Below, in pieces: positions 37,686 to 40,254 of a stretch of DNA of 41,404 nt. The stretch's first letter is position 1; each line of letters opens with the position of its first letter. The position numbers and the translations under genes were made by a program. Source of the DNA: a virus; the IMG/VR virus record IMGVR_UViG_3300021090_000056, positions 1 through 41,404 of that record. One strand, given 5' to 3'. The notes below the pieces were generated by a model. That model was not told where the DNA came from. It ran no database searches and was given only the letters and a program-made list of their open reading frames with translations.

Positions 37686-37976
37686 TTATGATCCTTTCTT
37701 GTAAGATAGTCCAGCAATGAAGGCTCGCAATTGATCTGCCAACTCTTTTTTGGAGTGGTATTCGGTACTGAGTGGGCAAGTCACTGCATCACTCTCATCT
37801 ATTGTTTGGTTTAGCTGGACTCCGCTATAGTAGGCGTAGTAGACGTGATAGTTTCCGATGTTTGCTTTGAAGCGCCCATCTGTCCCTTTGGTGTATTGCG
37901 TATTTGGGTTGCCCGTCAGTTTATTGATTCGATCAACGAGAGATTGCAGTTCTTTTTCGGTGGTTCGTTTGCTCAT
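37686..37976 (-). CDS. unknown small protein
   Basis: 96 residues from ATG 37976 (AAAGGA 8 bases upstream); an ATG 6 bases earlier is closer to the site and a longer frame from a TTG would run into the hammerhead-like RNA. LQSLVDRINKLTGNPNTQYTKGTDGRFKANIGNYHVYY suggests an alpha/beta unit with a Gly/Asn-rich hairpin. Function unknown. Confidence 0.55.
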   Translation of the reverse strand: MSKRTTEKELQSLVDRINKLTGNPNTQYTKGTDGRFKANIGNYHVYYAYYSGVQLNQTIDESDAVTCPLSTEYHSKKELADQLRAFIAGLSYKKGS

Positions 37977-38009
37977 GGTCATATTCCTTTCGTATAAGGT
38001 AATTGATTT

Positions 38010-38064
38010 GGACTTATTCAAGCAGCGTCATACGCTACGACCCACCCCCTGTGGGTTTCGTCCT
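38010..38064 (-). ncRNA. hammerhead-like RNA element 1
   Basis: On the - strand: GGAC (stem II, 5' half), GAAA, stem III CCCAC/GUGGG with loop AGGGG, UC, stem I GUAGCGU/ACGCUGC with loop AUG, then UUGAAUAAG and GUCC (stem II, 3' half). Order, GAAA, the U-C junction and stem geometry follow type II hammerhead ribozymes; predicted cleavage would be between 38039 and 38038. The core (UUGAAUAA) differs from CUGANGA by one insertion and two changes, so this copy may be inactive. It lies 6 bases after the stop of the 54-residue gene, before the start at 37976. Confidence 0.55.
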
Positions 38065-38070
38065 GTTTCA

Positions 38071-38235
38071 TTAGGATTTTTTCGGTTTGGTTTTGCCTCT
38101 CTTGATTTGGATACCAGATGCTCCAGCTTGCCGAAGTAATTTGACCCAGGACTCGGCGCGTGTTGCTGAAACTATTCGGCTAAGATGAATACCATTGACC
38201 CAATATGTTATGGTGACTTGTTTTTCTCCATACAT
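38071..38235 (-). CDS. small basic unknown protein
   Basis: 54 residues: MYGEKQVTITYWVNGIHLSRIVSATRAESWVKLLRQAGASGIQIKRG (read in parts), strand-strand-helix with a Lys-rich end (KTKPKKS). It begins 4 bases after the previous stop (GGAG upstream) and ends 6 bases before the hammerhead-like element. Function unknown. Confidence 0.55.
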   Translation of the reverse strand: MYGEKQVTITYWVNGIHLSRIVSATRAESWVKLLRQAGASGIQIKRGKTKPKKS

Positions 38236-38238
38236 CGG

Positions 38239-38640
38239 TTATCTCCGGCCTGCGACTTTACGAAGTTCTGATTCTGTGAGTGCGCCCGTGTGTGTGAAGT
38301 CACGGGGGTCGGGTCGATATATGGCAACCACGACTTGAGATGGGCCCTGTTCTCGAACACCATAAGCGTAAACATCGCCTGACAGCACAAAGTTTCGGGC
38401 TTGCTTGCGTAAGGCGTCCTGTGTCCAGGCGAGTTCGGTTTCATATCCGCGCCCTGTTGCATCTACCATGAAGGGTTCGATGTTGGGGTCTTGCACCCAT
38501 CCCTTCGGTACATAATCTCCCAGGAACGGAATGGTCTGCCCATCTATAAAATCCTGTGCCTTGACGGGTAATTTATGTTGTCTCTTGGCTTTGCGGCTTG
38601 CCTCCCTGCGAATGTCTAAAATAGTTGCTGTTGACCACAT
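38239..38640 (-). CDS. unknown small protein with basic N-terminus
   Basis: 133 residues from ATG 38640 (AAAGGAATAAATATC upstream). The N-terminus is basic (LDIRREASRKAKRQHK), then PFLGDYVPKGWVQDP and an alpha/beta region (NFVLSGDVYAYGVREQG). The final residues are basic (RKVAGRR). No family recognised. Confidence 0.5.
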   Translation of the reverse strand: MWSTATILDIRREASRKAKRQHKLPVKAQDFIDGQTIPFLGDYVPKGWVQDPNIEPFMVDATGRGYETELAWTQDALRKQARNFVLSGDVYAYGVREQGPSQVVVAIYRPDPRDFTHTGALTESELRKVAGRR

Positions 38641-38674
38641 GATATTTATTCCTTTCTTTTTGGGTAGTTGGGGT

Positions 38675-38947
38675 TCACAACTCATCACGGATGTATCCAC
38701 ATGCAATCCATAGGATGCGTTTGCGATTGAGATCATCGTCTTTTAGTTCTTCTTCATCCCATGCCCCATATTTTTGTAATTCAGCGGCAATGTCCTTAGT
38801 GGAGATAGCATTCAATTGTCTGGCAATGTTGGGCACAGTCAGAAGATAACGAATGTCATGATCGGCGTCTTTGCCAGGTATGCTTCCTCGGAGAGCCTGT
38901 TCTGTTGTTAGTTCGATAACGAAACTATCAAAGTATGCTTTGTGCAT
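38675..38947 (-). CDS. small conserved-type phage protein
   Basis: 90 residues from ATG 38947 (GGAAAGTAACC upstream). MHKAYFDSFVIELTTEQALRGSIPGKDADHD, then LQKYGAWDEEELKDDDLNRKRILWIACGYI (read in parts), matches a layout I have seen in many phages (YFDSF.IELT.EQA, YGAWD..EL.D...N..RI.WIA.). Function unknown. Confidence 0.6.
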   Translation of the reverse strand: MHKAYFDSFVIELTTEQALRGSIPGKDADHDIRYLLTVPNIARQLNAISTKDIAAELQKYGAWDEEELKDDDLNRKRILWIACGYIRDEL

Positions 38948-38949
38948 GG

Positions 38950-39267
38950 TTACTTTCCTTTCCAAAGATCGTTCAATTCTTTGCGGCGGATAAGACGGAC
39001 AGGATAATCCTGATTGTCACAATATTCTTTGCGCCGTTGTCTGGCTTCGTACAGGGTTTCTTCCTGAGTCACATCTTCCCATGTGCCATAGTAGACTTGG
39101 ATCACAAAGAGCGTGATATATTTCTGATGGTTGGAGATAATCCCATCCAGTAGGAAGATGCGCCCATCGTCCAGTTGGACTCGCCAGGGTTTCCATAATT
39201 GGATGACTGTGTGAGTTCCTGTTTCGTCCTTGACTCTGATTTGTTCACCAATTTCAGGATATTTCAT
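38950..39267 (-). CDS. unknown beta-barrel-like protein
   Basis: 105 residues. MKYPEIGEQIRVKDETGTHTVIQLWKPWRVQLDDGRIFLLDG is a strand-rich SH3/KOW-like opening, followed by a basic, Lys/Arg-rich helix (EARQRRKEYCDN) and RLIRRKELNDLW. AGAGGAGCATAAA precedes the start. May bind RNA or DNA; not proven. Confidence 0.5.
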   Translation of the reverse strand: MKYPEIGEQIRVKDETGTHTVIQLWKPWRVQLDDGRIFLLDGIISNHQKYITLFVIQVYYGTWEDVTQEETLYEARQRRKEYCDNQDYPVRLIRRKELNDLWKGK

Positions 39268-39278
39268 TTTATGCTCCT

Positions 39279-39401
39279 CTATTCTTCCGCTATGCGGATA
39301 GCCTCTAGCTTGGCCTTTTGCGCTTTTCTGCGTGCCTTGCTTTGGGCTTTGGATTTTTTATTGCGTGACTTGTCTTTGTTGTGTTGAACTTTCTTGCTCA
39401 T
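39279..39401 (-). CDS. 40-residue very basic protein
   Basis: 40 residues, Lys/Arg-rich with Gln, Asn and Ser (MSKKVQHNKDKSRNKKSKAQ...). AGGAAAATAAGCC precedes ATG 39401. It may bind nucleic acid. It ends 12 bases before the next gene. Too short to classify. Confidence 0.5.
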   Translation of the reverse strand: MSKKVQHNKDKSRNKKSKAQSKARRKAQKAKLEAIRIAEE

Positions 39402-39404
39402 GGC

Positions 39405-39737
39405 TTATTTTCCTGATGTTAGAAAGAATGTTTCTTCTGTGATGACTCTTGCATCCACAACATCGGGTCGGCTGAGATCATTAGCTTGAAAGACGTGACC
39501 GGCTTCGATCAGGCTTTGGGCAGTACGTCCGTAAAAGCCTTGCAGTGACCAGGCGCGTCCTGTGTCAACTAGATATTGAAACAGGGCGATCACGTCATCA
39601 TCGTCCAGGTCTCCCTGCTCAAAGTCTATAATATAGTCTACGTGATTTCCTGCGTTGATATGGTTGCTGACTTGAAAATTTGCAACGTTCGTAAAGGTGG
39701 CTAGATTATGCAGCTTTTCCTTATTTGTAGTTTTCAT
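39405..39737 (-). CDS. conserved phage protein, DUF7417-like
   Basis: 110 residues. [54 protein letters not shown] (read in parts) matches a family frequent in phages (ES/EQGDL...VIALFQ.L.DTG.AW.LQG.YGRTA..LI..G). Family name recalled. CGAGGAGTAAAAAC precedes ATG 39737, directly after the hammerhead-like element 2. Function unknown. Confidence 0.7.
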
Positions 39738-39769
39738 GTTTTTACTCCTCGAAAATTAGTTGGCTGATG

Positions 39770-39825
39770 GGACTCATTCAGATAGCGTCACACGCTATGA
39801 CCCTTGCCCCCAGGGGTTTCGTCCT
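39770..39825 (-). ncRNA. hammerhead-like RNA element 2
   Basis: On the - strand: GGAC, GAAA, stem III CCC.UG/CA.GGG with loop GGGG, UC, stem I AUAGCGU/ACGCUAU with loop GUG, then CUGAAUGAG and GUCC. This copy keeps CUGA and GA of the hammerhead core with one extra base (CUGA-AU-GA). Flanks AAAATTAG / CTAATTTT extend stem II across a bulge. Predicted cleavage between 39799 and 39798. Stem I differs from element 1 by compensatory changes (G-C to A-U, U-G to U-A). It lies 9 bases after the kinase-like gene stop. Confidence 0.6.
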
Positions 39826-39834
39826 AATTTTTTT

Positions 39835-40254
39835 TTACAGTCCATAGTCAAAAATGATGGGCTGTCCGTTGTGCAATGCCCAATTGTGATCGTTATCAAC
39901 ATCAAACAGGTGATATTTTTCACATAAGTCATAAACAGTTGTTTTGTCGTCGTCAGTGGCATAATCAAACTTCAGTTCTACATATGGCTGAATAATCCAT
40001 CTGTCCCCTTTGTCTGTTTCACCTTCTGCAATGACAGGAACAAAATACTTTCGATCTTGTTTTTTGATTCTTTTCAATGTGCTTACGTCGTCGTGAGAGT
40101 AGCCACGATCATCTACTTTTAGAACGTAATTATCAGTGATATAGATGCTACGCCCATTGCTGAGATTGTGTTGAGGAAAAGCAGACTCGCCGTTGATGAG
40201 GGCTTCGCCTGTGTCAAGAAACTTGGGGGTGATTTTCTTTTTGGCAGGGAACAT
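39835..40254 (-). CDS. mini protein-kinase-like fold protein
   Basis: 139 residues. YVLKVDDRG (K46) resembles the beta3 Lys, RWIIQPYVEL the hinge, and VDNDHNWALHNGQPIIFDYGL the catalytic loop and DFG-like strand (DxxxxN and D136). The N-lobe is short and the usual C-lobe is reduced, so this would be a compact kinase or pseudokinase. No activation loop can be placed. RBS is weak (GAGATAGAGGTATAAA upstream). It is followed by the hammerhead-like element 2. Confidence 0.5.
   Translation of the reverse strand: MFPAKKKITPKFLDTGEALINGESAFPQHNLSNGRSIYITDNYVLKVDDRGYSHDDVSTLKRIKKQDRKYFVPVIAEGETDKGDRWIIQPYVELKFDYATDDDKTTVYDLCEKYHLFDVDNDHNWALHNGQPIIFDYGL

Follow-up and report, generated by a model that had tools for sequence, protein, structure and literature searches.

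Two type II hammerhead-like elements with a recurrent extra core base between genes of a phage genome

The DNA analysed here, referred to as the window, is a virus record of 41,404 bases (IMGVR_UViG_3300021090_000056), which carries at its right end, amid short minus-strand genes, two small elements noticed earlier in a sequence-only reading as a pair of hammerhead-like RNAs with a non-canonical core. The locus raises the question whether these elements represent a divergent class of active ribozymes, a degraded pair or a variant of a known family, and what their role between the neighboring genes may be. A nucleotide-level search for the nearest phages of the window phage found none, and at the protein level the nearest annotated phages are only distant, with at most about 31% identity for the major head protein, which places the phage in an undescribed group.

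The presence of two hammerhead-like elements is confirmed, and their positions were borne out except for the upper ends, which had been placed one base too high at 38064 and 39825 (Table 1). Element 2 reads GGAC GAA ACCC(CUGGGGGCAA)GGGU C AUAGCGU(GUG)ACGCUAU CUGAAUGA GUCC and element 1 reads GGAC GAA ACCCAC(AGGGG)GUGGGU C GUAGCGU(AUG)ACGCUGC UUGAAUAA GUCC. In element 2, stem II is formed by GGAC/GUCC, stem III by ACCC/GGGU (4 bp with a 10-nt loop) and stem I by 7 bp with a GUG loop; stem III of element 1 consists of ACCCAC/GUGGGU. The succession GGAC-GAA-stem III-U-C-stem I-(CUGAAUGA or UUGAAUAA)-GUCC is the type II order that had been claimed, the cleavage-site C and the GAAA box are in place in both elements (GAAAC...GUC), and the proposed cut positions coincide exactly with the sites predicted from the hammerhead alignment. 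The two compensatory changes reported for stem I are reduced to one, because only the change from G-C to A-U between elements 1 and 2 is two-sided, the other being one-sided (U-G to U-A). Both copies indeed contain an extra core base, an A between A6 and U7 when aligned to the core C3 U4 G5 A6 N7 G8 A9 (an A6a insertion). Neither element therefore has the core exactly as CUGANGA, which counts among the defining features, and the two are termed hammerhead-like and regarded as an A6a variant of type II. The segments AAAUUAG before and CUAAUUU after element 2 (39818-39830 and 39745-39757, minus strand) may form an outer helix, which is taken as an individual trait because no such enrichment is seen in the class.

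Table 1. Positions of the two elements, their parts and the genes discussed, numbered along the window.
Feature	Position	Strand	Basis or remark
Element 2, type II hammerhead-like RNA, A6a variant	39770..39824	-	grammar scan and model R1
Core of element 2, CUGAAUGA	39781-39774	-	extra A at 39777
Predicted cleavage site, element 2	between C17 (39799) and 39798	-	hammerhead alignment
Anti-core of element 2, CAUCAG	39764..39769	-	complements CUGA[A]UG with the extra A bulged; sequence, MFE, class covariation
Element 1, architecture as in element 2	38010..38063	-	grammar scan and model R1
Core of element 1, UUGAAUAA	38021-38014	-	extra A at 38017; U3 at 38021, A8 at 38015
Predicted cleavage site, element 1	between C17 (38039) and 38038	-	hammerhead alignment
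Possible weak anti-core of element 1, AUCAA	38003..38007	-	complements UUGA[A]U; tentative
139-aa ORF	39835..40254	-	upstream of element 2; stop 10 nt before the element (ORF list)
110-aa ORF, DUF7417	39405..39737	-	downstream of element 2; start 32 nt past the element, ribosome site GAGGAG
54-aa ORF	38071..38235	-	upstream of element 1; stop 7 nt before the element
98-aa ORF	37686..37982	-	downstream of element 1; start 27 nt past the element, ribosome site AAAGGA
Major head protein gene		+	
Genes for family A DNA polymerase, DnaB-like and SNF2-type helicases, primase, UvsX-like recombinase		-	

Within the window, these two elements are the only places that satisfy a hammerhead-like grammar, and the best comparable stem score in 60 dinucleotide shuffles was 14 (reached once), below the scores of 15 and 17 obtained with the actual elements. 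Independent evidence comes from a covariance model (R1) built from 29 equal-length canonical type II elements of other phages and containing no window sequence; its training elements were picked for perfect stems, so its own covariation arises partly by selection. R1 matches element 2 with 40.0 bits (E 6.4e-13) and element 1 with 32.4 bits (E 6.3e-10), the E-values being rough ones from a short calibration, and these significant matches place both elements in the short-loop GGAC class of phage type II hammerheads. The U opening the loop of stem I, invariant in the 29 class members (A1), is likewise present in both. Small as the motif is, a chance resemblance is scarcely conceivable in view of the E-values, the shuffles, the occurrence in two copies and their same intergenic placement. 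A third, weak R1 match at 39177-39229 on the minus strand (15.3 bits, E 0.003), reading GGACGAAAC..GUC..CUGGCGAGUCC, was rejected, as its stems I and III are unpaired and it lies inside a reading frame (105-aa ORF, 38950-39267); it is probably a chance match or a remnant. A reading of the hairpins as terminators was also dropped, since no U run follows them.

A search of the window with Rfam 15 returned no hammerhead at curated thresholds or at E<=10, and neither element reaches the gathering threshold of RF02276. Canonical members of the same short-loop class also fail there (28-34 bits vs 37 in the two loci tested), and other A6a elements pass (46.1 bits for L223 and 38.6 bits for L184), which means that the deviation from CUGANGA does not alone exclude an element from the RF02276 family. 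In the loci tested, the short-loop class, including its A6a members, stays below the Rfam threshold, so that many of these RNAs probably escape standard annotation. Loci such as L336 and L027, among others, belong to a large phage type II class with a 7-bp stem I and the opening U in a loop of 3-5 nt, and a single locus can contain five or more short-loop hammerheads (e.g., L014, L022, L066, and L336).

The extra base was followed up by pattern scans of IMG/VR, which covered only parts of the contigs, so that all counts are lower bounds. At least 23 further non-redundant CUGAAUGA elements with good stems were found, and the same extra base thus recurs in ribozymes of unrelated phages. In an unbiased control scan leaving both core letters free (CUGANNGA with a GAC/GUC stem II, giving 16 possible cores), hammerhead folds were obtained for eight of the nine loci with AU, two of which represent the same element, and for none of the 18 loci with other letters; among these 27 loci listed, CUGAAUGA is the only one of the 16 possible cores seen in hammerhead folds. 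Canonical CUGANGA elements are far commoner, with more than 170 distinct folded examples among the matches listed, and the two types occur side by side: one record (L007) holds four hammerheads, of which one is an A6a element and at least two are canonical, the A6a element being one variant amid normal copies. Perreault et al. (2011; PMC3088659) showed that type II activity depends critically on a pseudoknot between loop I and the 3' tail, and the one A6a variant that they assayed had low activity, explained by a lost contact from U4 to the A6-N7 phosphate. Among A6a elements, those whose loop I is long have retained this pseudoknot, with a mean of 4.95 bp vs 3.46 in shuffled controls (0 of 1000 shuffles). 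In bacterial genomes, the pattern gave two matches, neither of which folds, and R1 finds nothing in those two genomes; canonical class members were present in 5 of 291 bacterial genomes of one class, too few for a replicate.

The two further core changes attributed to element 1 are present as C3U and G8A, which pair with each other. The Watson-Crick pair between positions 3 and 8 is kept as C-G in element 2 and as U-A in element 1; the two changes compensate each other and support function rather than decay. The same source describes the covariation from C3-G8 to U3-A8 as natural and active in vitro (PMC3088659). It is rare: when viral contigs were scanned for UUGANAA with a GAC/GUC stem II, only one further hammerhead fold was seen among the matches listed. 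This element (L305, 5968-6033, minus strand) has the core UUGAUAA, with U3-A8 and without the extra base.

Judged from the sequence, the extra base is a defined variant and not damage. The notion of a degraded pair is not supported, given an extra A common to at least 23 other phage elements, the failure of any other two-letter core to fold in the control scan and the compensating changes of element 1. The proposal of a divergent active class went too far in the other direction, as the pair represents a core variant found in a minority of ordinary type II hammerheads. Since A6a and U3-A8 were both reported in 2011, the elements should be seen as a recurrent variant and not as a new class. The earlier interpretation is therefore partly supported.

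Placement between a stop codon and the next start codon is shared by 177 of 217 canonical and 19 of 25 A6a elements, vs 20% of random positions, in collections that are lower bounds; the stop lies at a median of 2-3 nt before the element, and the start with its ribosome site follows at 23-26 nt. In the window, each element likewise occupies the space from a stop codon to the ribosome site that follows, so they probably split a polycistronic mRNA, and the suggested mRNA processing between genes fits this exact stop-to-start position, which is common to most phage hammerheads. Among the neighboring genes, the 139-aa ORF has no Pfam match, and the DUF7417 protein has relatives in five other viral contigs with 42-64% identity.

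The best explanation for these observations is that the two RNAs cleave themselves as type II hammerhead-like ribozymes carrying an A6a insertion and lie between genes of one operon, a reading to which we assign a probability of about 70%, cleavage itself being predicted from the sequence. It is favored by the independent R1 matches, the specific extra base, the kept 3-8 pair, the placement and the core-tail covariation described below; structure, class assignment by covariance model, specific conserved extra base, placement and covariation are directly established. Against it count the short loop I of both elements, which leaves no room for the pseudoknot, and the MFE fold of element 2 with its flanks, which is not the hammerhead but an alternative with the anti-core hairpin discussed below; the MFE fold of element 1 is the hammerhead. 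The absence of hammerhead copies from 12 distantly related records, found as relatives via the DNA polymerase and DUF7417, also counts against it, close relatives not having been found. Because the A6a insertion lowers activity according to the literature, both copies may be slow or conditional cutters.

Alternatively, the elements may descend from canonical hammerheads but be inactive or cut very slowly, crippled by the insertion and kept for their hairpins as mRNA-end or spacer structures. The low activity reported for the A6a variant would agree with this, as would the short stem III and the different MFE fold of element 2. Decay, however, would be expected to yield mixed insertions and broken cores, whereas both copies retain the rest of the core requirements, with the 3-8 pair preserved even via a double change, the identical insertion and no other recurs in at least 23 other elements, and the long-loop A6a elements keep their tertiary pseudoknot. 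We therefore consider inactive descendants unlikely.

If the two elements are self-cleaving ribozymes, they would act inside a single minus-strand operon of a dsDNA phage, between its genes. Once the polycistronic transcript is made, each element would fold and cut after C17, between the hairpins of stem III and stem I, probably co-transcriptionally, and thereby divide the operon mRNA. As follows from the type II order, the upstream mRNA would then end in the stem III hairpin just past its stop codon, and the 7-bp stem I hairpin would form the 5' end of the downstream mRNA, ahead of the ribosome site of the following gene; these terminal hairpins may set the lifetimes of the mRNAs.

An additional feature is found just 3' of about one sixth of the short-loop phage hammerheads, namely a segment that is the reverse complement of the element's own core and is called anti-core here. 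UCAG occurs within 12 nt after stem II in 28 of 167 canonical elements, vs 2 of 167 further downstream, and the base preceding it complements N7, the variable base of the core. UCAG stands at this site in 73 of 251 non-redundant elements, some of the 73 coming from a scan that required UCAG, and in 67 of these 73 the preceding base pairs with N7: with U at N7 (n=51) it is A in 43, G in 5 and U in 3 cases, with C (n=21) it is G in 19, A in one and C in one, and with A it is C once (Fisher p 1.8e-10). The covariation holds in the set collected irrespective of UCAG (p 5e-4), in the scan requiring UCAG with both bases left free (p 4e-7), and within single phages that contain both types (L336, L329, L346, and L122). 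The anti-core is concentrated in elements whose loop I is too short to engage the tail in a pseudoknot (22 of 129 vs 1 of 24 others). A fully complementary case is the A6a element of L007, where GUUCAG matches CUGAAU including the extra A. In element 1 of the window, AUCAA matches the C3U change, yet this pairing is weak and energetically loses to the hammerhead fold.

The hairpin CUGANG-AGUC-CN'UCAG takes up bases of the core and of stem II and so is incompatible with the active fold. Nearest-neighbor energies favor this alternative in each of the 54 examples with six pairs (mean -27.5 vs -24.7 kcal/mol for the hammerhead secondary structure, tertiary contacts not counted), and the MFE structure of the predicted 3' product pairs core with anti-core in these 54 members as well as in the product of element 2. 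We tentatively propose, at slightly less than even odds, that a subset of type II hammerheads including element 2 encodes a covarying anti-core whose hairpin, being incompatible with the active fold, confines cutting to a brief period or makes it irreversible. In element 2, CAUCAG would either refold the downstream product after the cut, preventing re-joining, or limit the time available for cutting.

The same covariation of N7 with the tail, the same energies and the median distance of only 2 nt between stop codon and ribozyme would also suit a bistable RNA switch, in which the anti-core competes with the core and cutting depends on transcription speed, on a ribosome at the upstream stop or on a bound factor. 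Such a switch seems doubtful, since nearest-neighbor energies omit the tertiary contacts of the hammerhead, only about one in six short-loop elements has the anti-core, the version in element 1 is weak, and a one-way role after cleavage accounts for the covariation equally well. It is unlikely that the anti-core is unrelated to RNA folding and reflects a DNA palindrome, serving as protein-binding site or arising where inverted repeats undergo templated mutation. In DNA, CTGANG-AGTC-CN'TCAG forms such a repeat, and templated correction of imperfect palindromes can create matches without selection, but the repeat coincides exactly with the ribozyme core, is confined to the first nucleotides after stem II and occurs mainly where the tail is free. 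As proposed above, a brief or irreversible cut controlled by the anti-core would, if true, tune the splitting of phage operons into single-gene mRNAs. The anti-core appears to be new, as no mention of it was found in the hammerhead literature surveyed, which was covered incompletely.

The role of hammerheads in phages has been an open question since 2011, which this pair and the surrounding class make testable. The ribozymes lie exactly between stop and start codons, one core variant persists although poor catalysis would be expected of it from published data, and many elements contain a segment which covaries with the core and may be able to switch the core off or lock the product. An extra core nucleotide has a parallel outside phages in the viroid ribozyme of CChMVd, where the additional base follows A9, beside stem II, and not A6. 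This hammerhead is also a natural one with a single extra nucleotide in its core (De la Pena and Flores, 2001, as cited in PMC6155905). Of the known systems, the one nearest to the pair is type II (RF02276; Perreault et al., 2011, PMC3088659), which shares with it the circular order of the segments, closed stems I and III with an open stem II, the GAAA box, A15.1-U16.1, the C17/NUH site, the stems, the position between genes and the occurrence of several copies per phage. Relative to RF02276, the window pair has a core (CUGAAUGA in element 2) one base longer than CUGANGA, has no loop I pseudoknot and stays below the Rfam threshold. The natural U3-A8 variants described in the same source contain the double change of element 1, which is here combined with A6a. 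The A6a variant shown there (Figure 5) has its insertion after A6 as in the window and is probably identical, but what appears in that study as a rare oddity of low activity is seen here as a single-sequence sub-variant repeated in at least 23 further phage elements.
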